The notes under the pieces were generated by a model that did not search any database, was not told the origin of the DNA, and worked only from the letters and a program-made list of their open reading frames with translations. Made by a program: the position numbers and the translations under genes. Shown piece by piece: positions 2,693 through 58,331 of a DNA stretch of 64,000 nucleotides. The DNA comes from Synechococcus sp. 8F6 (lineage in GTDB: Bacteria; Cyanobacteriota; Cyanobacteriia; PCC-6307; Cyanobiaceae): the NCBI RefSeq assembly GCF_002252665.1, contig NZ_NQKZ01000005.1:1-64000 (forward strand), read 5' to 3'. Position 1 is the stretch's first letter, and every line of letters starts with the position of its first letter.

Positions 2693-2713
2693 GCAACATC
2701 CGCCTTTCTGGAA

Positions 2714-3115: not shown

Positions 3116-3141
3116 GCCAGGTCAGGATGAAGGGAGAGCTT

Positions 3142-4308: not shown

Positions 4309-4315
4309 CCCGCCC

Positions 4316-5059: not shown

Positions 5060-5111
5060 CGTTAAAGTCCAGCCTGTGGCGTTCCCCCATGATCACCGCT
5101 GCAGCCCAGGC

Positions 5112-7561: not shown

Positions 7562-7562
7562 C

Positions 7563-8267
7563 TCAACCAAGCCAATCCTGCAGCCAGTCGCCGATCGTGC
7601 CTGCGAGCTGCTCGGGCATCTGGAGCATCGGCAGATGCCCCGCTCCGGCCAGCTCCACAAACTGGTGCTGGTTGGCATAGCCGGCCAGATGGCGCACATA
7701 ACGCGGCGCCATCACCTGATCGCGGCTTCCGGCAATCCAGAGGCTGGGCACCTGCAGTTGGGCGGTGAGCTGGGGGATCTGACGCACGGCGCCGCGGTTT
7801 GTGCTGCAGGCCAGCAGCCCCTGGGCGGCACGGCGCTCGGCCAGCAGCGGGCTGCGCAGGGGGTCAGTGCCGGGCAGCTCGGCCAGCCAGCTGGGGCGCC
7901 AGCGCAGAAACAGGGCACCGCCGCGTCGCACCTGGGCAAAAGCCCGCGGTTGGTAGACGCCACCCCCGGCGGCGATCTGCACCAGGCCCACCAGCTGCGG
8001 CCCCAGATGGGGCGCGGCGTGCAAGGCGACGCTGCCCCCCAGGGAATGGCCCAGCAACACGATCGGGCGCTCGCCGGCCTGCTCCCGGGCCGCCTGGGCC
8101 AGCCAGCGGCCGTAGCTGGCCAGATTGGCGTGCAGCCTCAGCGGCCGAGGCCGTTGGCCAAAGCCGGGCAGATCGGGGGCCCAGAGCTCCCAGCTCGGCG
8201 CCAGCTCGGCGGCCAGCGGCCGCCAGAGCCGCCCGGCCAGCAACCAGCCATGCAGGGCCACCAGCAA
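7563..8267 (-). CDS. Alpha/beta hydrolase
   Basis: About 234 residues of the alpha/beta-hydrolase fold. Visible elements are the oxyanion region V-A-L-H-G-W near the N-terminus, nucleophile elbow G-H-S-L-G-G (Ser), the acid in G-S-R-D-Q-V-M-A-P and the catalytic histidine in G-A-G-H-L-P. It resembles BioH/MhpC-like esterases; the substrate is unknown. The start is unclear. No in-frame ATG exists near the fold's beginning, so a TTG at 8267 (or a GTG two codons later) is chosen. A longer frame reaches back through an 18-bp tandem duplication. It is convergent with and one base from the ABC exporter. Confidence 0.85.
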   Translation of the reverse strand: MLVALHGWLLAGRLWRPLAAELAPSWELWAPDLPGFGQRPRPLRLHANLASYGRWLAQAAREQAGERPIVLLGHSLGGSVALHAAPHLGPQLVGLVQIAAGGGVYQPRAFAQVRRGGALFLRWRPSWLAELPGTDPLRSPLLAERRAAQGLLACSTNRGAVRQIPQLTAQLQVPSLWIAGSRDQVMAPRYVRHLAGYANQHQFVELAGAGHLPMLQMPEQLAGTIGDWLQDWLG

Positions 8268-8281
8268 CGGACGTGAGACAT

Positions 8282-8317
8282 CGTGCTCCAGAAGATCGAC
8301 GTGCTCCAGAAGATCGA
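8282..8317. repeat. Perfect 2 x 18-bp tandem duplication
   Basis: CGTGCTCCAGAAGATCGA occurs twice head to tail between the divergent hydrolase and acetyltransferase genes. Eighteen bases keep every reading frame, so it would insert six codons into either gene's possible N-terminal extension. It looks like a recent slippage or duplication event. Confidence 0.9.
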
Positions 8318-8402
8318 CGATCGGGGGCACCAGGCTGGCCCGGCGAGCGCCCCCTGGGCGGCCATCGGGCAGGATCGTTCCATTGCGTTGCACCCGCCCG
8401 TC

Positions 8403-8891
8403 GTGGCCTCGGCCGAGCTCCTCACCAGCCTCTACGGGGAGCAGCACCGGCTCTGCCCCACGCCCAATCCCCAGCTCAGCCTGGTGCTCAGCTGCGATCG
8501 CGAGATCGACCTGATCGAGCTGGAGCAGCTCTGTGACGCGGTGGGCTGGAGCCGCCGCCCCCTGCGGCGGGTGCGCAAGGCGCTGCAACACAGCCTGCTG
8601 CGGGTGGGCCTGTGGCGTCACGACCCACGCCTTCCCAAGCTGGTGGGCTTCGCCCGCTGCACCGGCGATGGCGTGGTGGAAGCCACGGTCTGGGATGTGG
8701 CAGTGCACCCCCTCTACCAGGGGGCCGGGCTGGGCAAGCAGCTGATGGTCTACGTGCTCGACCAGCTGCAAACGATGGAGGTGGATCGGGTCAGCCTGTT
8801 CGCCGACCCCGACGTGGTGGACTTCTACGCCGCCCAGGGCTGGGAGCTCGAACCGCTGCAACGGCGCTGCGCCTTCTGGTACGCCCGCTAA
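8403..8891 (+). CDS. GNAT family N-acetyltransferase
   Basis: About 162 residues from a GTG at 8403; the frame is open back to a GTG at 8283, but those 40 codons read like non-coding sequence. The GNAT core shows G-F-A-R-C-T-G-D-G, strand V-W-D-V-A-V-H-P-L-Y-Q-G, and the acetyl-CoA pyrophosphate loop Q-G-A-G-L-G-K-Q-L (the Q/R-x-x-G-x-G/A motif), ending with F-Y-A-A-Q-G-W-E-L. The acceptor substrate is unknown. It is divergent from the hydrolase and overlaps by four bases the 3' end of the convergent glycosyltransferase. Confidence 0.85.
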   Translation: MASAELLTSLYGEQHRLCPTPNPQLSLVLSCDREIDLIELEQLCDAVGWSRRPLRRVRKALQHSLLRVGLWRHDPRLPKLVGFARCTGDGVVEATVWDVAVHPLYQGAGLGKQLMVYVLDQLQTMEVDRVSLFADPDVVDFYAAQGWELEPLQRRCAFWYAR

Positions 8892-9625
8892 CCCCGCCGC
8901 CGCTCCCGCACTGCGCTGCCGTAGTAGCGGGCCGCCAAGGCTTCGGGCGGAATGCCCCGCCGCCAGGAGCGCCGCAGCTGGGCATTGGCCAGCGCCGTTT
9001 GCCACACCCCGAGCGCCTGCCAGCGGCGCCCATCCACCTGCAGCCGGGCCCCCAGCGGCCGCAGCTGGCTGAAGTGCCGCAGGCGCAGCACCAGCTCCAG
9101 ATCCTCCATCAACGGGATCAGCGCCACCCCCCCGGCCCGCGCCAGCAGGCGACGCGGCACCAGCAGACCCTGATCGCCATAGGGCAGTTGGCGCCAGCGG
9201 CTGCGCAGGGCCACGGCCAGCTCCACCAGTCGCAGGGCGGGCTGGGCAGCGGCGATGGCCAGATCGAAATACCAGGCGGCGTCTGGCAGGCCCAGGGCCA
9301 CCCTCACCGCCCGATCCCAGCCCGGCTCAAACCGGGCATCGGCATGCAGCAACAACAGCCAGGGGGATTCGGTGCTCGCCACACCCAGGGCCAACTGCCG
9401 GCCCCGGCCAGGGGAGCTGGCTTGCACCGCCGCCCCCGCAAGCGCGGCGACCCGGGCGGTGGCGTCGTCGCTGGCGCCGTCCACCACCAGGATCTCCCCC
9501 ACCAGCTGGGGAGCAGCGGCCAGGTCGGCCAGCAACAGCGGCAACCGTGGCGCCTCGTTGCGCGCGGCGATCACCACCGCAATCGGCGAACCGCTCAGCG
9601 CCACGGCCGCAGATCCATCGCCCAA
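8888..9625 (-). CDS. Family 2 glycosyltransferase, TIGR04283 (arsenosugar-biosynthesis type)
   Basis: 245 residues with a GT-A fold start: I-A-V-V-I-A-A-R-N-E-A near residue 15, I-L-V-V-D-G-A-S-D-D and L-L-H-A-D-A-R-F (the D-x-D-like metal site), then P-Y-G-D-Q-G-L-L-V and the conserved L-M-E-D-L-E-L-V. This is the TIGR04283 pattern, a family genomically linked to radical-SAM/selenodomain proteins and named for arsenosugar biosynthesis. It overlaps by 31 bases the upstream TIGR04282-type gene on the same strand, so they form one unit. The radical SAM partner (arsS) and arsM are not in this window. Confidence 0.85.
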   Translation of the reverse strand: MGDGSAAVALSGSPIAVVIAARNEAPRLPLLLADLAAAPQLVGEILVVDGASDDATARVAALAGAAVQASSPGRGRQLALGVASTESPWLLLLHADARFEPGWDRAVRVALGLPDAAWYFDLAIAAAQPALRLVELAVALRSRWRQLPYGDQGLLVPRRLLARAGGVALIPLMEDLELVLRLRHFSQLRPLGARLQVDGRRWQALGVWQTALANAQLRRSWRRGIPPEALAARYYGSAVRERRRG

Positions 9626-10224
9626 TCGAGGTCGCCCCGTGGCGCCAGCAGTGCCGGTTCCAGCCCCAGACGGTCGATCGCCGCCAGCGTCTGCGTGAGC
9701 ACCCTGGGAGTGCCCCAGGCGATGCCCGCCATCAAGGCGGGCTGCGGCTGGCGCAGCCCGAGCAACCAGTAGCCCCCATCATGAGCCGGGCCGAGCACCG
9801 CCGCGCGGCTCTCCAGGGCCGCAAACGCCGCCACCAGGTCATCGCCATCCAACTGGGGCAGATCACTACCGATCACCACCACCTGCCGGGCCCCGGCGCG
9901 GAACGCCCGCTGAACCTGGCGCTGCATCCGCAAACCCAGCCCGCCGGGGCCCTGCAGCTGCACGCGATCGGCTCCCAGCTCCACACCCCAGCGGCGAGCG
10001 GCCCGCCCCGCCAACCCATCCACCGCGAGCACCAGCTCAAAGCCCAGCCGTCGGCGCCCGCCGCGGGCCACCGCCAGGGTGTGGCTGGTGAGCCGAGACT
10101 GGATCCGGGCCGCCGCCGCTGCGCCGAGGGAACCCGCCAGTCGGCGCTTGCAGCGCCCCGGGGCTGGCCAACGGGCCATCACGATCAATTGACTGCCAGC
10201 GGGTTGGCCCATCCCCGCCCTCAC
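9595..10224 (-). CDS. TIGR04282-type glycosyltransferase (DUF2064)
   Basis: 209 residues. Family marks are I-V-M-A-R-W-P-A-P-G-R-C-K-R-R-L near the N-terminus (the A-R-x-P-x-x-G-x-x-K-x-R-L nucleotide-sugar site), I-G-S-D-L-P-Q-L mid-protein, and L-G-P-A-H-D-G-G-Y-W-L-L-G. This is the companion of TIGR04283 in clusters making arsenosugars or related glycosides. The GTG start overlaps the stop of the htrA-like gene (GTGA); an ATG four codons in is an alternative. The order on the minus strand, protease then two glycosyltransferases, suggests shared transcription. Confidence 0.85.
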   Translation of the reverse strand: MRAGMGQPAGSQLIVMARWPAPGRCKRRLAGSLGAAAAARIQSRLTSHTLAVARGGRRRLGFELVLAVDGLAGRAARRWGVELGADRVQLQGPGGLGLRMQRQVQRAFRAGARQVVVIGSDLPQLDGDDLVAAFAALESRAAVLGPAHDGGYWLLGLRQPQPALMAGIAWGTPRVLTQTLAAIDRLGLEPALLAPRGDLDWAMDLRPWR

Positions 10225-11345
10225 CCCTGGCGCGGCAGCTCCGCCGGCTTGAGCTGCAGGGTCAGCCGCTCATCGCCACGGCGCAGCGACACAGCTAAAG
10301 GCTGGCCCACCCGGCCCTGATCCACCGCCAGCTGCACCTCGGAGGGGTTCTTCACTGCCTTGCCGCCCACCTGATCGATCAGGTCGCAGGGCTTGAGTCC
10401 GCCTTTGGCCGCCGGGCTGCCGGGAATCACCTCCACCACCACCACGCCATTCACCTCCGGCAGGCGGCACTCATCGGTGCTGGCGTTGATCTCCCGGGCG
10501 AGCTGGGGCGTCAGGGCCTGCAGCCGCACGCCGATGTAGGGGTGGCTGGCGGAGCCCTTCTCCAGGATCTGTGCCGCAATCTGGCGCGCCACATTGATCG
10601 GGATCGCGAAGCTCAGGCCCGCCCCAGGTGCCTGGCGAATCGCCGTGTTGATGCCGATCACCTGACCACGGTCGTTGATCAGGGGTCCGCCGCTGTTGCC
10701 GGGGTTCACGGCCGCGTCGGTCTGGATGTAGGGCACCCGCTGTCCTTCACCCACCGCATTGGTGCGCTGGATGGCACTGATGATCCCAGCGGTCACGGTG
10801 TTGTCGAGGCCGAGGGGGTTGCCGATGGCGATGGCCCACTCGCCAGGCCGCACCTTGGCGGAATCGCCCAGGGGAGCCACCGGCAGCTTGGAGGCCACCA
10901 CCTTCACCACGGCCACATCGGTGAGGGGATCAGTGCCCAGCACCTTGCCATTGAAGCTGCGGCCATCGGGCAGGGTCACCGTCACCTCACTGGCCCCCTC
11001 CACCACGTGGGCATTGGTGAGCAGCACCCCGTCGGAGCGGGTGATGAAGCCCGAGCCCTGACCCTGCTGCTGCTGGATGGTGGGCCCGCGGCCGAACAGC
11101 CCACCCAGGGGGTTCACCAGGCGCTTGACGGTGTCGATCCGCACCACCGCCGGCCCCACCTTGGCCACCGCATCCACGATCAAGGTGTTGCCCTGCTGCA
11201 GCGGCGGCGTGGGAGCCGCATCACTGATCGGCGTCTGGGCACCAGGGCGGCCCGGCAGACCAGGCAGACCCTGGCTGCAACCCACCAGCAGCAGCGCAAC
11301 GGGAGCAATCAGCGCAGCTCGGCACGGGGGGGAAAGGCGCGGCAT
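10221..11345 (-). CDS. htrA: HtrA/Deg-type serine protease, predicted lipoprotein
   Basis: 374 residues from the ATG at 11345; an upstream ATG at 11381 would add 12. The N-terminus is a lipoprotein signal ending L-L-L-V-G-C (Cys23), so the mature protein is probably lipid-anchored facing the periplasm or lumen. The trypsin-like domain has His113 (T-N-A-H-V-V), Asp143 (L-T-D-V-A) and Ser218 (G-N-S-G-G-P). One PDZ domain follows (about 265-370, starting Y-I-G-V-R-L). The role is degradation or refolding of damaged envelope proteins. It is divergent from dnaA with a 96-base intergenic region. Confidence 0.93.
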   Translation of the reverse strand: MPRLSPPCRAALIAPVALLLVGCSQGLPGLPGRPGAQTPISDAAPTPPLQQGNTLIVDAVAKVGPAVVRIDTVKRLVNPLGGLFGRGPTIQQQQGQGSGFITRSDGVLLTNAHVVEGASEVTVTLPDGRSFNGKVLGTDPLTDVAVVKVVASKLPVAPLGDSAKVRPGEWAIAIGNPLGLDNTVTAGIISAIQRTNAVGEGQRVPYIQTDAAVNPGNSGGPLINDRGQVIGINTAIRQAPGAGLSFAIPINVARQIAAQILEKGSASHPYIGVRLQALTPQLAREINASTDECRLPEVNGVVVVEVIPGSPAAKGGLKPCDLIDQVGGKAVKNPSEVQLAVDQGRVGQPLAVSLRRGDERLTLQLKPAELPRQG

Positions 11346-11441
11346 GGGGGCGGCGTGGGGCCAGGTCGGAATCCGTTTCATTAAAGACGGCTCGGCCGCC
11401 ACACCACGCGTAGATTCAGCACCCACGAAACGGCGCGGTCG

Positions 11442-12833
<1,392 letters not shown>

Positions 12834-12840
12834 TCGGGCC

Positions 12841-13791
12841 TTAGGTGAGCGGCCGGGCAGGATCAAGCCCTTCCACTTCACCGGCAAACACGCGGCTGGC
12901 GGTGATGTCTTCGGCCTCAATCGTCATCAGATCGAGCTTGGTGAGCGGCGTGCCCATGCGGCTGAACAGCCGATTGGCCTGGCGCATCCGAGCCCGGTCG
13001 ATGGCATTACGAATGGAGCGGGCGTTGGCAAAAAACGGCAACTGCATGCGCCGCTGGATGTAGTCAGCAAAGGCAGCTGCCGCCTCCTCACTGAACCGAT
13101 AATTTTCAGCGGCAAGAATCAACTGGGCGATGGCCAACAGTTCAGCGGCGCTGTAGTCGGGAAAATCGATGTGGTTGGCCACCCGCGAGGAAAGGCCAGG
13201 ATTGGATTGGTAGAACACATCCATCCGCTCCTTGTAGCCTGCAAAGATCACGACCAGATCGTCGCGATTGCTCTCCATCACCTGCAGCAGGATTTCGATC
13301 GCCTCGGCGCCATAGTCACGCTCATTTTCAGGGCGATAGAGATAGTAAGCCTCATCAATGAACAGCACCCCACCCATCGCCTTTTTGAGCATCTCACGAG
13401 TCTTGGGAGCGGTGTGGCCGATGTACTGACCCACCAGGTCGTCGCGGGTGGCGGTCACCACGTGGCCTTTGCGCACGTAGCCCAGCCCATGCAGGATCTT
13501 GCTCATCCGCGCGGCCACGGTGGTTTTGCCCGTGCCCGGCCGTCCCGTGAACGACATGTGCAGGCTGGGCGGGGTGGTCTCCAGCCCCACCTGGTGGCGG
13601 GCCCGATCCACCACCAGCAGGGCGGCGATCTCGCGGATGCGGGCCTTGACGGGCCGCAGACCGATCAATTCCCGATCGAGCTGATCGAGCATCTCCTGAA
13701 TCCCGGCACTCTCGTAGGCCAACTGCAGGTCGATGGCGGTGTCGTCCGAGACTGTCGGAGCGGCAATCGGGCTGTCGGGATCAGATCCCAT
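12841..13791 (-). CDS. cbbX: RuBisCO activase CbbX (AAA+)
   Basis: 316 residues of the red/proteobacterial-type CbbX family, a hexameric AAA+ that pulls on the RuBisCO large-subunit C-terminus to release inhibitory sugar phosphates. Walker A GRPGTGKT lies at 83-90, Walker [13 protein letters not shown] near 140-151, and the pore-loop region L-V-G-Q-Y-I-G-H-T between them. A sensor/arginine-finger region follows (S-S-R-V-A-N-H-I). The leading ~20 acidic residues are unremarkable. It is the last gene of the long carboxysome transcript, 7 bases after the assembly factor, and a dedicated activase for the form IA enzyme is known in alpha-carboxysome systems. Confidence 0.95.
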
Positions 13792-13798
13792 AAGGGGT

Positions 13799-14056
13799 TC
13801 AGGCGATCAGGGCATCGATGGCGGCGCTGAAGGACCACTCGGGCGCTCCGATCAGGCTGCCTTCGGCCTCCGCCCGCACTGTGAGATTGACGTAGGTGCG
13901 CCCGAAGCTGATATCCGGGAAGCGTTGCTGCGCCTCGCAGAGGGCATTGAGCCGCTCCAGAAAATCCCTGGTGCTGGCGTAATCCTCGAATTCCAGGCGC
14001 CGCTCCAGCCGCTCAGGCTGCTCGGACTTGGGACGTGCAATCCAGGCTTGATCCAT
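13799..14056 (-). CDS. RuBisCO assembly factor of pterin-carbinolamine-dehydratase fold (acRAF)
   Basis: 85 residues from the ATG beginning [10 protein letters not shown]. It belongs to the PCD/DCoH-like family found next to alpha-carboxysome genes: the helix [20 protein letters not shown] and strand T-Y-V-N-L-T-V-R fit the fold. True dehydratases carry a catalytic H-H-P motif in this helix-strand region. It is replaced here by F-P-D-I-S, so dehydratase activity is unlikely. The family is reported to help form IA RuBisCO assemble. It sits between chpX (10 bases upstream) and cbbX (7 bases downstream). Confidence 0.88.
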
Positions 14057-14066
14057 GCCTTCGACG

Positions 14067-15209
14067 CTACGCCTCCAAGCAATCCGTGCGGGCAATACCC
14101 AGGCGCTGGGCCCAGGCGCCTGCATAGGCCTGATTGGCCGCCCGGGCCTCTGGATCGCTGCTGTCGAGCGGATGGGGCATGGTGCCATTGATGGCCGCGT
14201 TGGTGACACAGAACATCGATTTCTGAAAGCTCATGCAGATCTTCACGCGCACGTCGCCTTCGCCGCGCGTGCGCTCCAGGTACCACTGGTGCAACCGCTC
14301 CGGCAGGTGGCGGTACATGTCCTGCATTAGCAGGCTGGGCGGAATGCCGGAGCCCATGCTCGGCAGCGGATCGGCGTAGAGCGCCCCATAGGTGAACTGA
14401 GCCTGGTCGGGCGAGATCTGCTGAGCCTGGGCGTTGAAGCTCACCGTGCCCAGGAAGGGCATGCCTCGCAGAAACACCGCTTCCACATAGGGCACCGCCA
14501 CATCCACCAGGAAGGTGAGTTCCGCTTCCGGCGGAAGCACCCAGTAGCTCTGGCCGCCGACCTCCACTCCGTAGTGAATCGGGTTGGCGGCTGCGGCCAC
14601 CAGGCCGTTCTTGATGAACTCCACGACATCGGCAATGGTGCACACCCGTCCGTCGGCTTCAGCTGCGGCCAGATCCAGGAACAGATCGCTCATCACCCGC
14701 CAGAACTGGCCCAGGGCATGGGTGGTGGCGGCCGAACGGATCAATTCGGGCAGGAAGCCGGGGAACAGCGGGTTGAGGACGGCCAGCAGCGGATCACGCC
14801 GGCTCTTGGCCGCAATGATGCGGCGGCAATTGGTTGCAAAAGCCTCGGAATCAAAGTAGGCATCCATGCCACCGGTGGCATGCCAGAACATCGCCTTCTG
14901 GCAATACTCCGCATATTCGAAGTTGATGCGGTCGTGGTTGAGATGGCGCCAGATCTTGGCAGGGTTCAGATCCCCATCGAGGTATTTGAAGATCGGAAAA
15001 GGGTTGAGAAATTGATGCTCGGCCTGGTAGATCAGGTTGATGCTGTAGGCATCCAGCACCTCGCCATAGCTCTTGAGCACATCCACCACCTCCACCAGGT
15101 GATCGGCGCTCTCACCCAGAAGGGTTTCACCGGCCAGCAGGCGGCGCTGCACCTCCTCTCGGTCGATCGAGAGGTTGGCATGCACCAGCTCGGCGGGAAC
15201 GATCGGCAT
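14067..15209 (-). CDS. chpX: CO2 hydration protein of the NDH-1 CO2-uptake complex
   Basis: 380 residues of the ChpX/CupA/CupB family. It starts MPIVPAELVHANLSIDREEV and carries the family-wide helical core, including Y-Q-A-E-H-Q-F-L-N-P-F-P-I-F-K-Y and the late K-I-C-M-S-F-Q-K-S-M-F-C-V-T-N-A-A-I. CupA/CupB sit on the cytosolic face of specialised NDH-1 complexes and are thought to be zinc-dependent carbonic anhydrase-like converters of CO2 to bicarbonate, driven by plastoquinone reduction. It lies one base after ndhD4, so the three genes are co-translated. The partner subunits are of the F4/D4 (constitutive) type, hence a CupB-like role. Confidence 0.93.
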   Translation of the reverse strand: MPIVPAELVHANLSIDREEVQRRLLAGETLLGESADHLVEVVDVLKSYGEVLDAYSINLIYQAEHQFLNPFPIFKYLDGDLNPAKIWRHLNHDRINFEYAEYCQKAMFWHATGGMDAYFDSEAFATNCRRIIAAKSRRDPLLAVLNPLFPGFLPELIRSAATTHALGQFWRVMSDLFLDLAAAEADGRVCTIADVVEFIKNGLVAAAANPIHYGVEVGGQSYWVLPPEAELTFLVDVAVPYVEAVFLRGMPFLGTVSFNAQAQQISPDQAQFTYGALYADPLPSMGSGIPPSLLMQDMYRHLPERLHQWYLERTRGEGDVRVKICMSFQKSMFCVTNAAINGTMPHPLDSSDPEARAANQAYAGAWAQRLGIARTDCLEA

Positions 15210-15210
15210 C

Positions 15211-16728
15211 TCAGCCCAGCCCTCCCGGTATCGCTGTGATGCTGGCCAGCGCGGTGGTGGCCACCTCGCTCAGCCGGCCGAGAGTACTGGGCACCAGACC
15301 CAGCACCACCACTGCGGCCGCCAGGGCCACGGCGGGGACGGTTTCCCGCGGCGCGACTGGCGCCAGCTGCACATCCAGGCGCGCATCAGCAACCGCATCC
15401 GCACTGGGGGGCGTGATCGCCAAGCGACCGAAGAAGGCCCGGTTCACCAGCAGCAGGAAATACACCGCCGTGAGACCGGAGCCGACCATCGAAAGCAAGG
15501 TGGCTACCGGGTATTCGGCAATGCTGCCGCGGAACACCAGAAATTCCGAAATGAAGCCGGCCATGCCAGGCAAACCGGCACTGGCCATCACCGCCACGAT
15601 CATCAGCGAGCCGGTGAACGGCAGACCCCTCTCAAGATTGAGCAGGCCGCGCAACACCGCCAGATCACGGGTGCCCGTCTTGCGATACACAATCCCCACC
15701 AGCAGGAACAGCAGAGCCGAGATCAGGCCGTGGCTCACCATCTGGAACACCGCGCCCAGCAGGCTCACGGGCGTGTCAGATGCAGCTGCCAGCAGCACAT
15801 AGCCCATGTGGCCCACGGAGCTGTAGGCCACCATTCGTTTCATGTCGGTCTGGGCGATGGCGGCCAGGGAGCCGTACAGCACCGAAATCGCGGCCCAGAT
15901 CGCCAGCACCGGCGCCAGCTTCGCCCAGGCCTCGGGGAACAGTTGCAGGCCGAAGCGCAACATGCCGTAGGTGCCCAGCTTGAGCAAGACGCCCGCCAGC
16001 AGCACCGACACCGGCGTGGAGGCCTGGGTGTGGGTGTCGGGCAACCAGTTGTGCAGCGGCACCAGCGGAATCTTGATGCCGAACCCGATCAGCAAGGCCC
16101 CCAGCAGCCACAGCTGGCCGCCCATGGCCAGTCGGTCGCTGAGCACCGGCGTGAGGCTGAAATCCACACTGCCGGTGAGCAGGGCCAGCCCCAGGAAGGC
16201 CCCCAGGATCAACATGCCCGAGGCAGCGGTGAAGATCAGAAATTTGGTGGCCGCATAGGCCCGGTTCACCCCACCCCACACCGAAACCAGCAACCAGAGC
16301 GGAATCAGCTCCAGCTCGTAGAAGAGGAAGAACAGCAGCAGGTTTTCCGACAGAAAGGCCCCGTTCACCGCGCCGCTGATCAGCAGCAGCATGGCGAAGT
16401 AGATGCGCGGTCGCTTCTCGATGTCGCGGGTGATCACCGCTGACACCAGGGTGAGGGCGCCGTTGATCAGCACCAACGGCAGCGACAGCCCATCCACGCC
16501 CAGGGCATAGTCGAGGCCGATCCCCGGCAGCCAGGCGTGCCGCTCCTGCAGCTGCATGCCGGCCTGGGCCGTATCAAAGGCCAGGGCCACCGCCACGCTC
16601 ATCCCCAGTTGCAGCACCAGGATGGCGATGGTGATCAGCCGGAGCCGCGAGGGGCTGGGGCCGCCCGGCCAGAGCAACAAAGCCAGGGTCCCGGCGAAGG
16701 GAATCAGCAGAAGGCTGGTGAGCAGCAT
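15211..16728 (-). CDS. ndhD4: NAD(P)H-quinone oxidoreductase chain 4 (CO2-uptake type)
   Basis: 505 residues and about 14 membrane helices, a proton-pumping antiporter-like subunit of NDH-1. Landmarks are the buried glutamate in F-Y-E-L-E-L-I-P-L-W near 135, K-I-P-L-V-P-L-H-N-W-L-P-D-T-H (lysine and broken-helix region) and D-M-K-R-M-V-A-Y-S-S-V-G-H-M. Placement directly before chpX and after ndhF4 assigns it to the CO2-uptake complex in the thylakoid rather than respiratory NDH-1. The spacers on both sides are only 1-2 bases. Chain 4 identity is certain; the D4 class comes from context. Confidence 0.95.
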   Translation of the reverse strand: MLLTSLLLIPFAGTLALLLWPGGPSPSRLRLITIAILVLQLGMSVAVALAFDTAQAGMQLQERHAWLPGIGLDYALGVDGLSLPLVLINGALTLVSAVITRDIEKRPRIYFAMLLLISGAVNGAFLSENLLLFFLFYELELIPLWLLVSVWGGVNRAYAATKFLIFTAASGMLILGAFLGLALLTGSVDFSLTPVLSDRLAMGGQLWLLGALLIGFGIKIPLVPLHNWLPDTHTQASTPVSVLLAGVLLKLGTYGMLRFGLQLFPEAWAKLAPVLAIWAAISVLYGSLAAIAQTDMKRMVAYSSVGHMGYVLLAAASDTPVSLLGAVFQMVSHGLISALLFLLVGIVYRKTGTRDLAVLRGLLNLERGLPFTGSLMIVAVMASAGLPGMAGFISEFLVFRGSIAEYPVATLLSMVGSGLTAVYFLLLVNRAFFGRLAITPPSADAVADARLDVQLAPVAPRETVPAVALAAAVVVLGLVPSTLGRLSEVATTALASITAIPGGLG

Positions 16729-16730
16729 GA

Positions 16731-18596
16731 TCAGCCCGCTCCTGGCAACAGCTGGAGCGAACCCAGCAGCAGCACGATCGCCACGATCACCGTGAGCACG
16801 TAGCTCTGCAGTTGACCACTGATGCTGAGCTTGAGCCCTTCCGCCGTGGTCAGCGACAACCGGCCGACCCCATCCGCCAACCCCTTGATCACGGTGACGT
16901 CAAACCAGCGGGTGAGGCGGGCCAGGGAAGCCACCAACAAGACAACGGTGCGCTGGTAGATCTCAGGGGTATAGAAGTCGTAGGCGAGCAGGTCCTGCAG
17001 CACGCGCAGGCTGGACTTGGTGGAGCGCGACCAGAACTCATCAAGGTGCACCACAGAGCCGATCAGCAGGCCCACCAGGCCGCTGCCAGCCACCGCCAGA
17101 CCCACGGGCAGCGGGAAGGCGGCAATGCCGGGCACCGTATCGATGCGCTGCATGATCCAGGGCAGCAGCACCACCAGCACCGAAAGGCTCACCATGGGCA
17201 GGGCCATCAACCAGTTGGCCTCAGGTGCCCGCTTGGTTTTGGGCAGCACGGGTCCAAGAAACACCGAGCGGAACACCCGGGTGACATTGGCGGTAGCCAG
17301 CAGATTGGTGAGCAGGAAAACCAGGGCAAACAGCGGCTCATCGGAGCGCAGATTTTCCACCATCAGCCCCATGCACCAGAAGCTGCCCAGGGGCACCAGC
17401 CCCAACAGGCCGGCACTGCCCAGCAGGAAGGCCATGGTGGTGGCGGGCATGCGGGTGCCCAGCCCTCCCAGCTCGGTCAGGTCCTGGCAGTTGCTGGTGG
17501 CGATGATGCTGCCCACGCCCATGAACTGCAGTGCCCTGGCCAGACCATGGGCAAACAGCAGCAGCAGGGCGATGCCGGGGAGTTGCAGGGCGATGGCGAT
17601 GAACACCAGGCCCAGAGAGGAAGTGGTGGAGTAACTGAACGCGCGCTTGATGTCCACTTGGGCCAGCGCCACCAGGGCACCACCCACGGCGCTGATCGTG
17701 CCAACCGCCAGCAACACATCCGTGGCCAGGGGAGAAAGGGCCACGATCGGCATCAGCTTCATCAGCACGATGGCACCGCAGGTCACCACCACTGAGTTGC
17801 GCAGAATCGAGGCGGGGTTCGGACCCTCCATCGCCTCATCCAGCCAGAGGTGCATGGGGAACTGAGCGCACTTGCCCATCGGCCCTGCGATCAGCCCCAG
17901 CCCCAGCAGGGTGCCGGCCAGGGGGGTGATCAGGTGCTGCTCACGGGCGTTGCCGGCCCAGGCATAGAGGTCGTTGAATTCCATCGAGCCCGCCCAGGCC
18001 GACAGCGCCACCACCCCCATCAGCAGCAGCACATCCCCCACCCGTTTGGTGAGAAAGGCATCGCGGGCAGCGGTGACCACCAGGGGCTGGGCATACCAGA
18101 ACCCCACCAGCAGATAGGTGGAGAGGGTGAGCATCTCCAGCAGGAAATAGCTCATGAACAGGTTGCTGCTCAGCACAACCCCGCTCATCGCCCCTTCGAA
18201 GAAACCAACCAGGGCATAGAAACGGGCGAGAGACCACTCCTTGTCCATGTAGCCCAGGGCGAACACCTGGCAGACCAGGCTCATGGTGGTCACCAGCTCC
18301 AACGCCGCCAGGTTGGTCAGGGAGAGATCGAAACCGATGCGCAGGTTGAGATCGGCCGCCTGGAACCAGGGAAACTCGAAGTGCTGGGGACCGAGGGTCC
18401 AAACTTGCTTCAGGATGACTGAGCTGTGCCCCACGGCCAGCAGGGTGACCAGCAGATTGAGGTAGGCCGCCGGCCGCGGACCGTTGCGCTTGAACCAGCC
18501 CGCTGCCCACGGCAAAGACAAGACCATGCCGCTGAACCCATACAAGGGGAGCATCCAGGCCAGCTGGATCGGGAGTGGCAAGGAGGGGGCGAACAA
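16731..18596 (-). CDS. ndhF4: NAD(P)H-quinone oxidoreductase chain 5 (CO2-uptake type)
   Basis: 621 residues, membrane-embedded, chain 5/NuoL-like. Visible elements are the conserved W-L-D-E-A-M-E-G-P-N-P (where respiratory NdhF has W-L-P-D-A-M-E-G-P-T-P), V-D-I-K-R-A-F-S-Y-S-T-T-S-S-L-G, and a long C-terminal region including the lateral-helix part. The altered P-D to D-E motif and the partnership with chpX fit the F4 class of CO2-uptake complexes. The start is a TTG; an ATG 14 codons later is possible. It lies 81 bases after the ferritin-like gene, the longest gap in this half of the operon, where a weak internal promoter could sit. Confidence 0.95.
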   Translation of the reverse strand: MFAPSLPLPIQLAWMLPLYGFSGMVLSLPWAAGWFKRNGPRPAAYLNLLVTLLAVGHSSVILKQVWTLGPQHFEFPWFQAADLNLRIGFDLSLTNLAALELVTTMSLVCQVFALGYMDKEWSLARFYALVGFFEGAMSGVVLSSNLFMSYFLLEMLTLSTYLLVGFWYAQPLVVTAARDAFLTKRVGDVLLLMGVVALSAWAGSMEFNDLYAWAGNAREQHLITPLAGTLLGLGLIAGPMGKCAQFPMHLWLDEAMEGPNPASILRNSVVVTCGAIVLMKLMPIVALSPLATDVLLAVGTISAVGGALVALAQVDIKRAFSYSTTSSLGLVFIAIALQLPGIALLLLFAHGLARALQFMGVGSIIATSNCQDLTELGGLGTRMPATTMAFLLGSAGLLGLVPLGSFWCMGLMVENLRSDEPLFALVFLLTNLLATANVTRVFRSVFLGPVLPKTKRAPEANWLMALPMVSLSVLVVLLPWIMQRIDTVPGIAAFPLPVGLAVAGSGLVGLLIGSVVHLDEFWSRSTKSSLRVLQDLLAYDFYTPEIYQRTVVLLVASLARLTRWFDVTVIKGLADGVGRLSLTTAEGLKLSISGQLQSYVLTVIVAIVLLLGSLQLLPGAG

Positions 18597-18677
18597 GGGG
18601 AGAGGGTGTCGATCGGCAGTGTTCGAGATGAACAGATCGGCCGCCGGACTCTAGGCATCAGCCGCGGAATCCTGGAA

Positions 18678-19145
18678 CTAGAAGGTGGCCCGCTCCATCG
18701 ACGGATCGTGGTTGGGGCCAAGGCTGCGCAACCAGTCACCCAGATCCTCACCGTGGTGTTGTTCGTCCGACCAGAGGCCACGGAAGAAGGCCTCGTTGTC
18801 GCCGTCACCGACCAGCACACAGAAGCGCACGGCCTCGGCGTAGTGGTTGATGAGGTCCGTTTCCAGAGAAAGGTTGAGCCGCAACAAGCCGACCAAGTCC
18901 GCGGCATGGGAGACGGGCCGCAATTGAGATGCGGCCGGTGCCACCCCAAGGGCCAACATGCGCTGAATGATCCGCTCGGCGTGTTGCAGTTCCTCCACGG
19001 TTTCGCGGCGGAACCGTTCAGCGGCATCGCCATCACCCCAGAGCTCCACGAGGGAGGCCTGGGTCATGTACTGCTGAACCGCAGAGAGTTCAAGACTCAG
19101 AGCGCGACCGAGGTATCCCAGGACGCGCGGATGAACGGCGCCCAT
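18678..19145 (-). CDS. Ferritin-like (bacterioferritin-type) protein in the carboxysome operon
   Basis: 155 residues with a four-helix ferritin-like arrangement: helix A with L-E-L-S-A-V-Q-Q-Y, helix B with E-E-L-Q-H-A-E-R-I (an E-x-x-H pair), helix C with S-L-E-T-D-L-I-N-H-Y, and helix D with S-D-E-Q-H-H-G-E-D-L. These are the expected di-iron ligands, so metal binding or ferroxidase activity is plausible. A bacterioferritin-like gene is commonly found in alpha-carboxysome loci, but its function there is unsettled. It follows csoS1E by 5 bases and precedes ndhF4. Confidence 0.88.
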   Translation of the reverse strand: MGAVHPRVLGYLGRALSLELSAVQQYMTQASLVELWGDGDAAERFRRETVEELQHAERIIQRMLALGVAPAASQLRPVSHAADLVGLLRLNLSLETDLINHYAEAVRFCVLVGDGDNEAFFRGLWSDEQHHGEDLGDWLRSLGPNHDPSMERATF

Positions 19146-19150
19146 GGCGA

Positions 19151-19783
19151 TCAGAGACGGCGGGTGGTGGCGGTGGCGATCAGGGCAGGCTCCACTTCGC
19201 TGTGGGGGCGGGCAATGATGTGGGCGGCAACCAGGCCATCACCCACGCGCTCACAGGCATCGGCACCAGCGCGCACGGCCGCGTTCACAGCACCGGTTTC
19301 ACCGCGCACCATCACGGTGACGTAGCCACCACCAACGAATTCGCGGGCGATCAGGGTCACCTCAGCTGCCTTGGTCATGGCGTCGGCGGCTTCAATCGCC
19401 GGCACCAGGCCACGGGTTTCGATCATGCCGAGGGCGATGCCCTGAATGGAAGGAGCCATGGCGTTGCTGCGCGAAGGGGTGGTGGGGGGTTTGGTGCCGG
19501 CACCGCGGCCGCCGCTTCCAGAACGGGAGCTAGCGGAGGTGGCAGTGGAGCGGCGGGTGGTGCTGGAGGCACGGGGCGTCGCCTTGGCGGCCGGCTTGGC
19601 CACGGCTTTCGCCGCGACGGGCTTGGCCGCTGCCGCCGGCAGCGCCTTGGGGGCAACTGCTGGTACGGCTGAGCCGGCCGCCGCTCCCGTCGCCGGCGGG
19701 GCGCTGACTGCCGTTGCCGCCGGAGGGGCGGGTTTGGCAGCGGACGCTGTGCTGGGGGTGGGTCGGGGAGTGGGGGTGGCCAT
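19151..19783 (-). CDS. csoS1E: Carboxysome shell protein CsoS1E (BMC-H with basic N-terminal tail)
   Basis: 210 residues. The C-terminal ~100 (from about residue 112, I-Q-G-I-A-L-G-M-I-E-T-R-G-L-V-P-A-I) form a BMC-H domain nearly identical to CsoS1, including the pore-side H-I-I-A-R-P-H-S. The first ~108 residues are a low-complexity Ala/Pro/Lys/Arg/Ser tail with no acidic residues, hence strongly basic and probably disordered. CsoS1E proteins with such extensions are known in cyanobacterial cso operons and are minor shell parts. The tail could contact RuBisCO, CsoS2 or nucleic acid; that is inference. It lies 64 bases after csoS4B, with a short GGATCG/CGATCC hairpin between them. Confidence 0.92.
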   Translation of the reverse strand: MATPTPRPTPSTASAAKPAPPAATAVSAPPATGAAAGSAVPAVAPKALPAAAAKPVAAKAVAKPAAKATPRASSTTRRSTATSASSRSGSGGRGAGTKPPTTPSRSNAMAPSIQGIALGMIETRGLVPAIEAADAMTKAAEVTLIAREFVGGGYVTVMVRGETGAVNAAVRAGADACERVGDGLVAAHIIARPHSEVEPALIATATTRRL

Positions 19784-19823
19784 GGCTCAGGGGTGTAGGA
19801 GCTGGTGAGAGGACAGAACGGGT

Positions 19824-19839
19824 GGATCGCGAACGATCC
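19824..19839. other. Short hairpin between csoS4B and csoS1E
   Basis: A perfect 6-bp stem GGATCG (19824-19829) / CGATCC (19834-19839) with a CGAA tetraloop lies in the 64-base spacer. There is no T-run after it on the transcribed strand, so it is more likely an RNA-stability or processing element than a terminator, if it has a role at all. Confidence 0.4.
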
Positions 19840-19847
19840 GAGCCGCC

Positions 19848-20099
19848 CTAACCGTCGGGCTCCCAGAAGTCGATGATTCCGCCGATCGTCAGATCGGTCT
19901 GCACCTCAGGGTTACCGCAGGCGAAACGGGCTGCTGAACCGCTAGCGGTGAACACCCAATTGCCCGGGGAGGCACCCACCGGATCAACAGCCACGCTGAG
20001 CTTGCCCTTGGTCGTACGCAACACGCGCAGGTTGGAGTGGTCGAGACCAGGCACACGCTGGGTGCACACCAAAGAGCCCGTGACCTGCATGATCTCCAT
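19848..20099 (-). CDS. csoS4B: Carboxysome vertex protein CsoS4B
   Basis: 83 residues of the BMC-P (EutN/CcmL) family, whose pentamers close the twelve vertices of the icosahedral shell. It begins M-E-I-M-Q-V-T-G-S-L-V-C-T-Q-R and contains A-V-D-P-V-G-A-S-P-G-N-W-V-F and the family ending T-D-L-T-I-G-G-I-I-D-F-W. Its ATG overlaps the csoS4A stop (TAATG), so the two pentamer proteins are translationally coupled. Assignment as B rather than A follows its position second in the pair and its shorter tail. Confidence 0.95.
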   Translation of the reverse strand: MEIMQVTGSLVCTQRVPGLDHSNLRVLRTTKGKLSVAVDPVGASPGNWVFTASGSAARFACGNPEVQTDLTIGGIIDFWEPDG

Positions 20100-54452: not shown

Positions 54453-55100
54453 CTAGGTGCCGGCGCGGCTTTTGACGCGGCCTGCCGCCATGGCCCGCAG
54501 AATCTGGGCGGGATCGAGCCAGCGCCCGCCGTGACGCATGCCCCAGTGCAGATGGGGGCCGGTGGTGCGACCACTCATGCCCACATGGCCGATCAACTGA
54601 CCGGTGCGCAGCCGTTGCCCCTGGCGCAGGGCGACGGGGCCGCTGCGATAGGTGCCGCCGGCCACGTGGCCGGCGAGATGGCAATAAATGTGCTCGTAGT
54701 CCCCCGAGCGGATCACCAGGCCGATGCCACAGGCTCCGTCGTGGATCACGTCCTGCACCACCCCGGCCCACCAGTTGCGGATCGGCGAGCCCATCGGGGC
54801 GGCGATATCGAGGCCGTAGTGGGGCTCCACCCGGCCCCAGGGCCCCGTGCGGGTGCCGAAGTGGCTGGTGTAGGCCAGGAAGTTGGCAACCGGAAACACC
54901 CCCATCTGCCAATGGGCTTGCGCGAGGGCCGTACCGCAAGCCAGCTGAACCGTGACAGCCACAGCCGCACAGATCAGACCGGGCCAGGCAGCGGTTCTTT
55001 CACCCCTGCAAAACCCTGTTGAGCAGCGTGTCAAACAACGTCTGAAAGGGCCTTTGAAACGTTTCGTCAGGGGGCGGTGCTTAAAGCAGGCCGAGCGCAT
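54453..55100 (-). CDS. M23-family (LytM) peptidase
   Basis: 215 residues. A basic N-terminus precedes a hydrophobic export segment ([20 protein letters not shown]). The LytM domain covers the rest: H-Y-G-L-D-I-A-A-P (H-x-x-x-D zinc motif), Y-C-H-L, and H-L-H-W-G (H-x-H). It is expected to be a zinc endopeptidase cleaving peptidoglycan cross-links in the periplasm, or a divisome helper. The ATG start lies 20 bases inside the hemH 3' end; non-ATG starts further in are possible. It follows hemH on the same strand. Confidence 0.88.
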
Positions 55101-56256
55101 GCAGGGGGCCCCGTCCGCTGATCAGTTCCAGCAGGAAAGCGGAAAAGCCCACCATCGCCAAGCGACCGTTCCACACTTCGGAGCTGTTGTTCCAGCCCCA
55201 GGCCCACTTGTCCTGGGGATAGAGCTTCACCTTGGTGGGCAACTCGGCGGCCTGATCCAGGTTGACCTCGGGGCCCTCCAGGGCGTGCTGCACGAGATCG
55301 GCCAGGCCGTGAATGAAAGCTGGGGTCGTGTCCAAGGCCGGGACGCGCCTGAAATTGATGATGCCCGCCTCGGTGGCGATTTCCCGGTATTCGATGTCGA
55401 TTTCTTCGAGCGTTTCGATGTGCTCACTGACGAAACTGATCGGCACCACCACCAGATCGGTCACACCGGCGGCCCCCAGCTCCTGCAGGGCGTCGTCGGT
55501 GTAGGGCTTGAGCCACTCCACCGGACCCACCCGGCTCTGGTAGGCCAGGGTGAACGGATTGGCGTGGCCCAGATCGCGCTCGAGCCGCTCCATGATCAGG
55601 CGCGCGCAGGCTTCGATCTCTTGCTGGTAGGGGTCGCCAGCCTCCTCCACGTAGCTCTTGGGCACCCCATGGGCACTGAAGAACACATGGGCCTGGGCCG
55701 GCTCGGGGCAGGCCTGGATCTCGCGGGCAATCAGGCCGGCCATAGCGCCGATGTAGCCGGGGTCGTCGTAGTAACTGCGGATGCAGCGGATCGGCAGGCG
55801 CGAAAAGCCTGTATCGGCCTGACGCAGCCGCTGCAGCTCCCGGAAACTCGAGCCGCTGGTGCTGATCGAAAAGTGGGGATAGAGGGGCAGCACCACCACC
55901 TCATCCACTCCGTCGGCCTTGATGTCGCCCACCGCCGATTCGGTGAAGGGGTGCCAATAGCGCATGGCCACGTAGCTGGTGGCCTCGATGCCCCTGGAGC
56001 GCAATTCACTCTGGAGCTCCCGGGCCTGCTGTTCGGTGATGCGCCGCAGGGGCGAGCCACCGCCGATCGAGCGGTAGGCCTCCTGGGATTTGCCGGCCCG
56101 CAGACTGCTGATCAACCAGGCCAGGGGCTTCTGGAGAGCAGGATTCGGCAGCCGGATGATCTCCGGATCGGAAAACAGGTTGTAGAGAAACGGACCGACG
56201 TCCTGAATACGCTCGGGCCCGCCGAGGTTCAGCAGCAGCACGCCAACCTTGGCCAT
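55081..56256 (-). CDS. hemH: Ferrochelatase with C-terminal chlorophyll-binding (HLIP-like) domain
   Basis: 391 residues. The chelatase domain (1-320) has L-L-N-L-G-G-P-E, the metal-site region F-S-A-H-G-V-P and the acidic C-terminal [12 protein letters not shown]. After a linker, residues ~355-391 form one membrane helix with the chlorophyll a/b-binding signature ([12 protein letters not shown]), as known for cyanobacterial and plastid ferrochelatase II. It inserts iron into protoporphyrin IX; the tail is thought to sense or bind chlorophyll and aid dimerisation, linking heme to chlorophyll supply. Confidence 0.97.
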
Positions 56257-56358
56257 GCCCTCGTTCCGTGCGGCTCAGGAAGGCCGAGCGTAACGCTGCC
56301 GCTACACCCCTAGCGGCTTCGGCGTCGGATCGATAACGTCGAGACCTGTGCAAGGGCC

Positions 56359-57588
56359 ATGGCAAGCGGAGCTGCGGTGCCCGATCTGGCGAGCCTGCAT
56401 GCCCAGCTGGCGCAGGAAAACAGCGCCCTGGCGCGGGCGGGGCTTTCGCTACGTCTAGAGCTGCGCGGCCAACGGCTGGGGCTGCGGGGGCCGCTGCCCT
56501 GCCGCCATGGGACGGGTCGGCACCCCGTGCAGCGCATCAGCCTGGGGCTGCCCGCCGACGCAGCGGGGTTGGATCAGGCCAAGGAGCGCCTCAAGGAGGT
56601 GCTGCGTCAGCTCCAGCAGGGCCGTTTCGACTGGTCGGTGTGGGCCCGGGCGCTGCCGGAACCGACCCCAGGAAGCCCTGTGACCGAGCGGGTGACGAGG
56701 CCGGTGGTGAAGGGCTGCGGCGATCCCCTCGGGCTGGAGAGCTTCGAGGCGGCCTTCTTTGCCGACCCCCGCCGCCGCCGCAACCCCGCCGGCTGCCGCA
56801 CCACCTGGATCAGCGCCTACCGTCCCTACCTGCGGCGCCTGGCGGCGGTGGCGGCGGAACGGAACTGGCCCCTGGTCCTGCCTTTGCTGGAGACGGTTCT
56901 GGAGAGCTATGCCCCAACCAGCCGCAGTCGCCAGCAGTGCGGCACCGCCCTGGCGGCCCTGGCCCGCCACCTGGGCCAGCCCTTGCCCGAGGACTGGGCC
57001 GAACGGGCGGCGGGCTACGGCCTGCATGCGGCCCAGTTCCGCAGGCTGCCCGGCGATCCGCAGATCCTCGCCCTGGCCGAACAGATCCCCAACCCCAGCT
57101 GGCGGCTGGCCTACGCGTTGATGGCCACCTATGGCCTACGCAACCACGAGATTTTTTTCTGCGACCTCTCGGCCCTGGCCCCCGGCGGCGACCGGGTGAT
57201 CCGGGTGCTGCCCACCTCCAAAACCGGGGAGCACCAGGTGTGGCCGTTCCAGCCGGAGTGGGTGGAACACTTCGGCCTGGAGCAACTGGGGAGCACCGCC
57301 CCACCTTTGCCCCCAGTGGCCACCGACCTACGCCGCACCACCCTGCAGCAGGTGGGCCGGCGGGTGGCGGAACAATTTCGCCGCTACGACCTGCCGATCA
57401 CCCCCTACGACCTGCGCCATGCCTGGGCGGTGCGCACCATCCACATCGGCCTGCCCGACACCGTGGCAGCCCGGATGATGGGTCACTCCGTGGCCATTCA
57501 CACCCGCACCTATCACCACTGGATCACCCGCCGCGACCAGCAGCAGGCGGTGGATGCGGCCCTGGCGCGCCGGCAGTCGGTGGCCTAA
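56359..57588 (+). CDS. Solitary tyrosine recombinase
   Basis: 409 residues. The N-terminal ~120 residues resemble an arm-type binding and SAM-like region. The catalytic domain (about 215-405) has all key parts: Arg in Y-G-L-R-N-H-E, a Lys-bearing beta hairpin (T-S-K-T-G), the D-L-R-H-A-W box, G-H-S histidine, and the nucleophile tyrosine in T-R-T-Y-H-H-W. It looks intact and active. It sits between the core genes hemH and cobO with no phage or element genes around it and host-like GC, so it is probably a resident cellular recombinase or an old, fixed integrase. Confidence 0.88.
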   Translation: MASGAAVPDLASLHAQLAQENSALARAGLSLRLELRGQRLGLRGPLPCRHGTGRHPVQRISLGLPADAAGLDQAKERLKEVLRQLQQGRFDWSVWARALPEPTPGSPVTERVTRPVVKGCGDPLGLESFEAAFFADPRRRRNPAGCRTTWISAYRPYLRRLAAVAAERNWPLVLPLLETVLESYAPTSRSRQQCGTALAALARHLGQPLPEDWAERAAGYGLHAAQFRRLPGDPQILALAEQIPNPSWRLAYALMATYGLRNHEIFFCDLSALAPGGDRVIRVLPTSKTGEHQVWPFQPEWVEHFGLEQLGSTAPPLPPVATDLRRTTLQQVGRRVAEQFRRYDLPITPYDLRHAWAVRTIHIGLPDTVAARMMGHSVAIHTRTYHHWITRRDQQQAVDAALARRQSVA

Positions 57589-57623: not shown

Positions 57624-58331
57624 GTGAGCCAACCCGATCCCACCGCACCCCAGCCCGACGCCACTGCGCCAGGGTCGGCCCTCGATGCGGTGGCAGAGGA
57701 ACTCGGCCCCGGCGGCGCTCTGGCGCCAGAAGCGGATGCCGATGGCTACCGCCGCCGCATGGCACGGCGCAAGGAGGTGCAGCAGCAGCGAGTGGGTGAG
57801 CGCAACCTGGAGAAGGGGCTGGTGCTGGTGTTCACCGGCGATGGCAAAGGCAAGACCACCGCAGCCCTAGGGCTGGTGCTGCGCACCCTGGGCCACGGCG
57901 ACGCGGTGGCGGTGGTGCAGTTCATCAAGGGCGGCTGGCAGCCCGGCGAAGCCAAGGCCCTGGAGTTGTTTGGCGACGCGCTGGCCTGGCACGCCCTGGG
58001 CGAGGGCTTCACCTGGGAAACCCAGGACCGGGAGCGGGATCGTGTGTTGGTCCAGGCCGCCTGGGAGAGATCGCTCAGCTACCTCGCCGACGCCAACCGC
58101 AAGCTGGTGGTGCTCGATGAGGTGAATGTCGCCCTCAAGCTGGGCTACCTGGCGGTGGAACAGGTGCTGGAGGGCCTGACCCTGCGCCCCGAGCTCACCC
58201 ACGTGGCCCTCACCGGCCGCGGTGCCCCCCCGGCCCTGGTGGAGCGGGCCGATCTGGTGACGGAAATGAAATTGCTGCGCCATCCCTTCCGGGAGCAGGG
58301 CGTGAAAGCTCAGCGAGGGATTGAGTTTTAG
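57624..58331 (+). CDS. cobO: Corrinoid adenosyltransferase (CobO/BtuR)
   Basis: 235 residues from a GTG. After a ~65-residue acidic, Pro/Ala-rich extension, the enzyme core shows the Walker A-like G-D-G-K-G-K-T-T (about 73-80), V-V-Q-F-I-K-G-G-W, and V-V-L-D-E-V-N-V-A-L, the CobO marks. It transfers the adenosyl group of ATP to cob(I)yrinate or cobalamin to give the coenzyme form. The long N-terminal extension is unlike the E. coli enzyme. The gene starts 35 bases after the recombinase and is the only cobalamin gene here. Confidence 0.94.
   Translation: MSQPDPTAPQPDATAPGSALDAVAEELGPGGALAPEADADGYRRRMARRKEVQQQRVGERNLEKGLVLVFTGDGKGKTTAALGLVLRTLGHGDAVAVVQFIKGGWQPGEAKALELFGDALAWHALGEGFTWETQDRERDRVLVQAAWERSLSYLADANRKLVVLDEVNVALKLGYLAVEQVLEGLTLRPELTHVALTGRGAPPALVERADLVTEMKLLRHPFREQGVKAQRGIEF

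Follow-up and report, generated by a model that had tools for sequence, protein, structure and literature searches.

The window (the whole stretch of DNA analysed here, 64,000 nucleotides long) contains a gene for a tyrosine recombinase whose reading frame is open throughout and which lies between a divergent ferrochelatase gene and a downstream neighbour on its own strand (Table 1). Following the sequence-only reading, we take these neighbours to be hemH and cobO. The recombinase gene has a GC content of 71.4%, compared with 66.4% for the window (standard deviation of 1,230-bp windows, 3.1%), and a GC3 of 0.866, compared with 0.84 for hemH and cobO; it is therefore broadly host-like in composition, as the sequence-only reading had proposed. 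That reading had also reported no tRNA or att-like repeat near the gene, and both observations hold: the only tRNA of the window is a tRNA-Pro at 1866–1940, and the repeats around the recombinase gene are weak and, as judged without shuffles, such as GC-rich coding sequence would normally contain. A search of window positions 1–20000 with 14-nt seeds found no direct repeats of at least 22 nt. No inverted repeat stands out near the gene, and no link was found to the element at tRNA-Pro that it had been suggested to serve. The same genome holds three PF00589 matches: the hemH-linked recombinase, a second tyrosine recombinase broken over two frames (L001; C58, about 110 kb) and a 358-aa integrase (L002).

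Table 1 Features of the recombinase locus in the window, and paired homologues in other genomes
Feature	Position	Strand	Details
Resident tyrosine recombinase	56359..57588	+	409 aa, ATG start; arm-binding, core-binding and catalytic domains (predicted)
N-terminal arm-binding-type domain, residues 10–96	56386..56646	+	AlphaFold model; helix, three strands, helices
Core-binding helical domain, residues 126–217	56734..57009	+	AlphaFold model and structure comparison
Catalytic domain, residues 230–409	57046..57585	+	Alignments
Catalytic-domain residues	R261 (57139), K288 (57220), Y350 (57406), R353 (57415), H376 (57484), Y385 (57511)		Y385, nucleophile
hemH (ferrochelatase), divergent neighbour	55081..56256	-	
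cobO, downstream neighbour	57624..58331	+	
Conserved TCGATAACGTC element	56330..56340	+	Fits -10 box (TANNNT) of putative recombinase promoter
Conserved AGCGTAACGCTG element	56287..56298	-	Fits -10 box of putative divergent hemH promoter
f30 homologue pairs (L247–L249, L254–L257, L261)	G398 C1 4535233-4551701; G462 C1 213619-229697; G488 C6 48505-66414; G410 C2 82996-102182		

By its predicted fold, the encoded protein is a tyrosine recombinase. Pfam Phage_integrase matches residues 325–387 with 28.6 bits (cut-off 27.1), and the PHROGs matches are integrase families (best E value 1.1e-11). The NCBIfam XerC/D subfamily model NF001399 scores 13.8 bits against a cut-off of 279, and the XerD model TIGR02225 scores 14.4 bits against 329.6. 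An AlphaFold model computed with 43 orthologues as input (mean pLDDT 88.5, pTM 0.64) begins with an N-terminal unit of helix, strands and helices; a linker modelled with low confidence leads from it to the helical core-binding domain, and the catalytic domain comes last. The nearest solved structures are XerA, XerH, an integron integrase, the Tn1549 integrase and lambda integrase; XerH (5jjv_A) aligns over 266 residues (VIA Z 14.0, rmsd 4.8), and lambda Int aligns from residue 9–11 of the model onward. The fold matches also include phage phi3T SroF and YopR, which have the tyrosine-recombinase fold and regulatory titles, and the sole match in a sequence search against solved structures was archaeal Xer 4a8e (E value 7.1e-6). 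Arm-DNA-bind_2 (PF12167) matches 14 of the 43 aligned orthologues (best E value 1.1e-4) and not the window protein itself. The features expected of an arm-domain tyrosine integrase are thus present as a predicted arm-binding domain at residues 10–96, with PF12167 in orthologues only, and as the catalytic Arg, Lys, Arg, His/Trp and Tyr.

The open frame, the Pfam match and the predicted fold bear out the view of the sequence-only reading that the recombinase is intact. Its statement that all catalytic residues are present is correct for R261, K288, R353, H376 and Y385, whose roles we assign by likeness to known recombinases, but not for the first His of the HxxR box, which reads Y-D-L-R with Tyr350 in that place. 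None of the six active-site positions, not even Tyr350, varies among the 91 distinct Cyanobiaceae proteins or among the 43 rows of a class-wide alignment. Because Tyr350 is common to these orthologues and to all 28 mobile relatives described below, it is a trait of the family and not a sign of decay.

The intergenic region between hemH and the recombinase carries two conserved elements. Of 107 distinct intergenic stretches, 72 contain the TCGATAACGTC motif with up to two substitutions and 91 contain the core AGCGTAAC with up to one; mononucleotide shuffles give 2.7% and 4.2%, respectively. We considered an att site, but the TANNNT form and the variable spacing are better suited to two divergent promoters, which is what the elements probably represent. 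Synonymous-site conservation, calculated after dropping rows at least 95% alike, peaks at 0.274 in hemH codons 2–11 (95% permutation maximum 0.287) and at 0.266 within the recombinase (0.279); both peaks stay below the permutation maxima, so an overlapping site in either gene is not supported.

The recombinase is near-universal in Cyanobiaceae and patchy elsewhere in the class. Within the family it has a match in 288 of 300 genomes and in 195 of the 197 good ones, and a strong copy in 193 of the 197, match strength being read from the table of matches. Among the exceptions, G266 and G025 have an intact hemH and no recombinase-like sequence in the 1.5 kb upstream of it, and in G049 hemH and cobO lie less than 1 kb apart with no recombinase between them; these three are clean losses. 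Their XerC/D-like matches reach 119 bits (G025) and 31 bits (G266), with none in G049, and none passes the cut-off. The fourth exception, G087, in which the contig stops inside hemH, is not counted as a loss. The orthologue contains an internal stop codon in one family member (G108) and in G408 and G423 of the wider class, and G344 carries a decayed copy. Class-wide, 152 of 195 genomes have a match, about 110 of them strong (E value below 1e-70), which leaves about 85 without a strong copy. Together with the losses, the decayed copy and the stop codons, this shows that the gene is not universally essential.

The position of the gene is also conserved. We compared 110 loci from nearer relatives (the best 80 of one search and the best 30 of a Cyanobiaceae search, including the locus of the window), which encode 91 distinct proteins. 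In 108 of them hemH is divergent and adjacent, and the remaining two lie at a contig edge; counted as distinct loci, hemH is adjacent in 90 of 91, the last again being at a contig edge. cobO adjoins the recombinase in 98 of the 110 loci; in 9 others it lies at a greater distance downstream, and in the last 3 it was not seen. Another ten loci, from more remote Cyanobiaceae, have hemH in nine cases and cobO in all ten. The sequence-only reading had pictured the gene as stranded among core genes and had proposed a check of its conservation between hemH and cobO; the picture of a stranded gene is wrong, as both the recombinase and hemH beside it are conserved. Of 20 distant loci of the class, chosen from the strong matches, 8 have hemH as the adjacent divergent gene and 1 has it downstream, whereas in 11 it was not seen within about 5 kb. 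The hemH–recombinase pairing is therefore old but not general.

Compared with seven near relatives, of which two rows are identical and one pair has a dS near 1, the recombinase has a dN/dS of 0.13–0.21. Its protein distances track those of HemH (r = 0.94, Mantel p 0.001, 103 distinct loci; the same over 120 loci). An unrooted tree was built from 44 core and 28 mobile-type rows. A branch supported at 100/99 separates all core rows from the others, and the 24 Cyanobiaceae rows (100/100) sit beside two other core rows (100/98), which are presumably S. elongatus. L134 was counted among the core rows on account of its 50% identity to the window protein, and L166 forms a long basal branch of the core group and has no hemH beside it. 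Seven mobile rows that repeat others and L133 were omitted, as were L002, L114 and L132, which gave no match at 1e-5.

The mobile relatives are integrases at 34–44% identity with the same active site. In the 28 mobile rows, which include ten more distant rows from family f30, R261, Tyr350, R353, H376 and Y385 are present in all 28 and K288 in 27. In 13 of the 18 mobile loci outside f30, a same-strand tRNA ends 140–200 bp upstream of the start of the integrase match; one other locus has a tRNA downstream on the opposite strand, and four have none, including L291, for which about 225 bp upstream were covered. The one-strand layout of tRNA, 140–200 bp and integrase (13 of 18, L283–L300) involves seven kinds of tRNA. 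L281 and L282 share one genome, in which the two integrase copies (G459 C1 613812 and 629186) lie about 15 kb apart, one of them adjoining a tRNA-Leu. Four f30 genomes of different genera each carry two divergent recombinase homologues about 14–17 kb apart. No repeat of the tRNA end was found beside the mobile integrases within the fetched stretches, so the mobile elements are not delimited. At the core gene, neither the att repeats nor the tRNA target of a mobile-element integrase was found, and in the 30 core loci compared no tRNA lies within 4 kb of it. Viral contigs contain 37 loci with relatives at up to 45% identity in the best segment; when the 35 full-length viral rows were included in a FastTree tree (two rows short of full length being left out), the core group stayed intact except that the viral contig L304 falls inside it. 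Phage records gave three matches, all to Cyanophage PSS2 at 28% identity, and plasmids gave three at 28–38%. By these sequence comparisons the recombinase is intact, conserved and vertically inherited, and the best interpretation of the core gene is that of a domesticated sister to integrases that target tRNAs, a direction of change that we infer.

We then surveyed the Xer and FtsK proteins of cyanobacteria. None of 195 class genomes passes the NF001399 (XerC/D) cut-off, and 168 have matches at E values up to 0.001. The cut-off is strict: 13 of 14 control genomes match and 5 pass, so failing it does not prove that an Xer-type enzyme is absent. Ten genomes of families f12 and f27 (212–233 bits) and f17 (173–178 bits) have XerC/D-like matches and no strong recombinase copy. 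We take f12 to be Gloeobacter. The complementarity of the two genes is only suggestive, because G477, G464 and G466 carry a strong recombinase copy together with an XerC/D-like match near 1e-51, a match of this kind also occurs in G408 alongside a recombinase copy interrupted by one stop, and both genes are missing from G337 and G363. A 2016 survey, in the part available, describes xerC as rare, present in PCC 7942 and PCC 6803 and absent from Gloeobacter (PMC5101192); set against the f12 matches, this indicates that the naming of such genes differs between methods.

The FtsK gamma domain was found in none of 61 Cyanobiaceae genomes (8 of 14 controls positive), and an FtsK/SpoIIIE motor over the Pfam cut-off likewise in none of 61, where three matches are weak (8 of 14 controls exceed the cut-off); the FtsK motor with gamma domain that characterizes bacterial Xer dimer resolution was thus not detected. 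For Synechocystis and S. elongatus, the FtsK/SpoIIIE entries in the available part of a review are all footnoted as YjgR, HerA clade (PMC7766704). Some published statements differ from our Xer and FtsK negatives: in the portions available, XerCD is said to be present in five cyanobacteria tried (PMC3025954), xerC is reported by the survey above (PMC5101192), two XerD and an FtsK are listed for Halomicronema (PMC6416890) and ftsK transcripts are mentioned in Prochlorococcus (PMC5082946). These transcripts may come from a YjgR/HerA-type gene. As counted from the table of matches, 38 of 200 Cyanobiaceae genomes have a single PF00589 match. Among 18 genomes checked, mostly picked for having one match, 16 have one, so that a second partner recombinase as in XerC/XerD was not seen in these 16, and in 11 of them its location is tied to the hemH-linked recombinase; other genomes have more matches, and PF00589 can overlook divergent recombinases. 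The recombinase is the only match in single-contig genomes of 1.6–1.8 Mb, such as G095, G152 and G010.

A recombinase that resolves dimers would be expected to have a dif-like target. On G095 C1 the cumulative AT-skew minimum lies at 840,430, and in three relatives at 841,970, 845,232 and 849,194; a fifth genome, G317, was excluded as not collinear there. All four minima of these Prochlorococcus-like genomes (G095 and the relatives G152, G117 and G245) fall inside one intergenic stretch, between genes that we take to be leuS and dapF, despite an inversion of the region in G152. The stretch contains conserved AT-rich blocks; no clear palindrome was found in it in the four genomes, and GC skew shows no comparable switch there. 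Two marine Synechococcus-like genomes have their AT minimum at a distance of about 11 kb from leuS–dapF. No clear dif-like site was found in the 60–180 kb terminus stretches of the four Prochlorococcus-like and two marine Synechococcus-like genomes. A strong palindrome at 1,268,938 in G204 was set aside; it is absent from the window and is located immediately upstream of a gene that, judging from the pattern of its product, may encode a Fur-family regulator. The AT-skew minimum at leuS–dapF nevertheless gives a place to look for the target site. In the parts of the literature available, a 2011 attempt to predict dif was unsuccessful for each of the five cyanobacteria included (PMC3025954), and a genome paper from 2019 states that dif sites are not predicted in cyanobacteria (PMC6416890).

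Our leading interpretation, which we hold tentatively, is that a domesticated integrase has become a resident recombinase whose role is most likely chromosome dimer resolution without FtsK. An arm-domain integrase of a cyanobacterial family would have been domesticated long ago beside hemH, and its descendant, vertically inherited and with an intact active site, is presumably expressed and active. The enzyme would recombine one chromosomal site and so convert dimers that arise from homologous recombination into monomers. By analogy with XerS, XerH and XerA it may act as a homotetramer, but without FtsK, and the arm-binding domain would take the place of FtsK in giving the reaction its direction or topological selectivity. 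This interpretation draws on the near-universal presence in Cyanobiaceae, the invariant active site, purifying selection, HemH-like descent and the separate clade, on XerC/D and FtsK staying below their cut-offs, on the single PF00589 match of some genomes and the fold neighbours, and on the ten f12, f27 and f17 genomes that have XerC/D-like matches instead of a strong recombinase copy. XerS, which is said to lie nearer to phage recombinases than to XerC (PMC8987985, in the part available), offers a precedent for such an enzyme swap; another survey, also available in part, places XerS in its Xer subgroup (PMC8138268). Several observations count against dimer resolution: no dif-like site was found near the terminus or the gene, losses and stop codons are tolerated, and G477, G464, G466 and, with its stop, G408 carry both the recombinase and an XerC/D-like match. 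Many cyanobacteria are also polyploid and may tolerate dimers. The printed association of the arm domain with mobility (PMC8138268, in the part available) and the published reports of XerCD, xerC, FtsK or ftsK in cyanobacteria count against it as well. The XerC/D substitute proposed in the sequence-only reading thus stays the leading idea, with no XerC/D over the strict cut-off in 195 genomes, although the dif-like site that would go with it did not appear in the stretches examined. A wider claim, which we regard as rather doubtful, is that in much of the cyanobacterial class XerCD–FtsK has given way to a domesticated arm-domain integrase, which would resolve dimers independently of FtsK. Its arm domain and putative arm sites would then replace the translocase, and the terminus site would be invisible to dif predictors.

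Much of this evidence can be read in other ways. A housekeeping site-specific recombinase with another target, such as plasmid multimers, Holliday junctions at a conserved locus or a regulatory-segment switch, would leave identical evidence of conservation and would sit well with the tolerated losses and with the scanned stretches that yielded no terminus site. We nevertheless judge it unlikely, given that the gene is the only PF00589 match in the small single-contig genomes named above, that no striking inverted repeat lies near it and that a candidate target was not found. The tRNA-adjacent relatives (13 of 18 loci), which share the active-site motif, raise the idea of a resident integrase that acts in trans to mobilize islands without a recombinase of their own, for example elements at tRNA genes. 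This we find improbable: the 30 core loci have no such tRNAs within 4 kb, no element is tied to the recombinase, and purifying selection with vertical descent suggests a benefit to the host. Domestication into a regulator that binds DNA, perhaps at the divergent hemH promoter, has a similarly low probability in our view; neither the nucleophile nor any other catalytic residue varies in the 91 distinct proteins or the 43 class-wide rows, and in 12 of the 20 distant loci no divergent hemH was seen, even though divergent hemH is kept in some distant genomes and the fold matches include SroF and YopR. That the gene is a decaying prophage or island remnant, as integrase-like domains and the stops in some copies outside the family and one inside it might suggest, is very improbable, and for Cyanobiaceae it is contradicted by purifying selection, near-universal presence, the conserved neighbour and the separate clade. 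The sequence-only reading had expected canonical Xer proteins and a patchy gene in the case of a remnant. Cyanobiaceae do not show this combination; outside the family the gene is patchy, and three losses within it and weaker Xer matches in 168 of 195 genomes are to be set beside that.

We conclude that this integrase-like gene is an old, vertically inherited resident of many cyanobacteria that may replace the usual chromosome-separating enzymes. It provides a concrete candidate enzyme for the open question of how cyanobacteria, including Prochlorococcus, resolve chromosome dimers. Its predicted arm-binding domain is also at odds with the rule of thumb by which this domain signals a mobile element, so island finders may miscall the recombinase.

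In the literature covered (passages of papers, mostly outside subscription journals) we found no description of the hemH-linked recombinase; PMC12884075, PMC7381316 and PMC2410131, in the parts available, concern other genes. The predicted three-domain layout is shared with the IntBPP-1-type arm-domain integrases of phages and ICEs (PF12167, Smyshlyaev et al. 2021), in which the first catalytic His is less well conserved (PMC8138268, in the part available); the recombinase here also lacks that His. Likened by description, it differs from them in being vertically inherited, with no element, tRNA or att repeat detected. XerC and XerD are likewise chromosomal recombinases with a conserved active site, but the window protein matches XerD only weakly, far below the cut-off, and has an extra domain. 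XerS/difSL, XerH/difH and XerA/dif each have one resident tyrosine recombinase with a core-binding and a catalytic fold, as here; the recombinase adds a predicted arm domain, and no dif site and no FtsK motor over the Pfam cut-off were found with it. The available part of one survey proposes the Cyan subgroup of simple recombinases, usually without an arm domain, as a stand-in for Xer in Oscillatoriophycideae (PMC8138268). Compared by description, the predicted arm domain speaks against membership of our recombinase in that subgroup. Prochlorococcus and Synechococcus have another tyrosine integrase, cluster158946, described in the part available as present in some of the genomes, where its usual place is in variable islands, upstream of tRNA-Phe or tRNA-Cys (PMC10187409). 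In contrast, the recombinase described here is near-universal and stands beside hemH.
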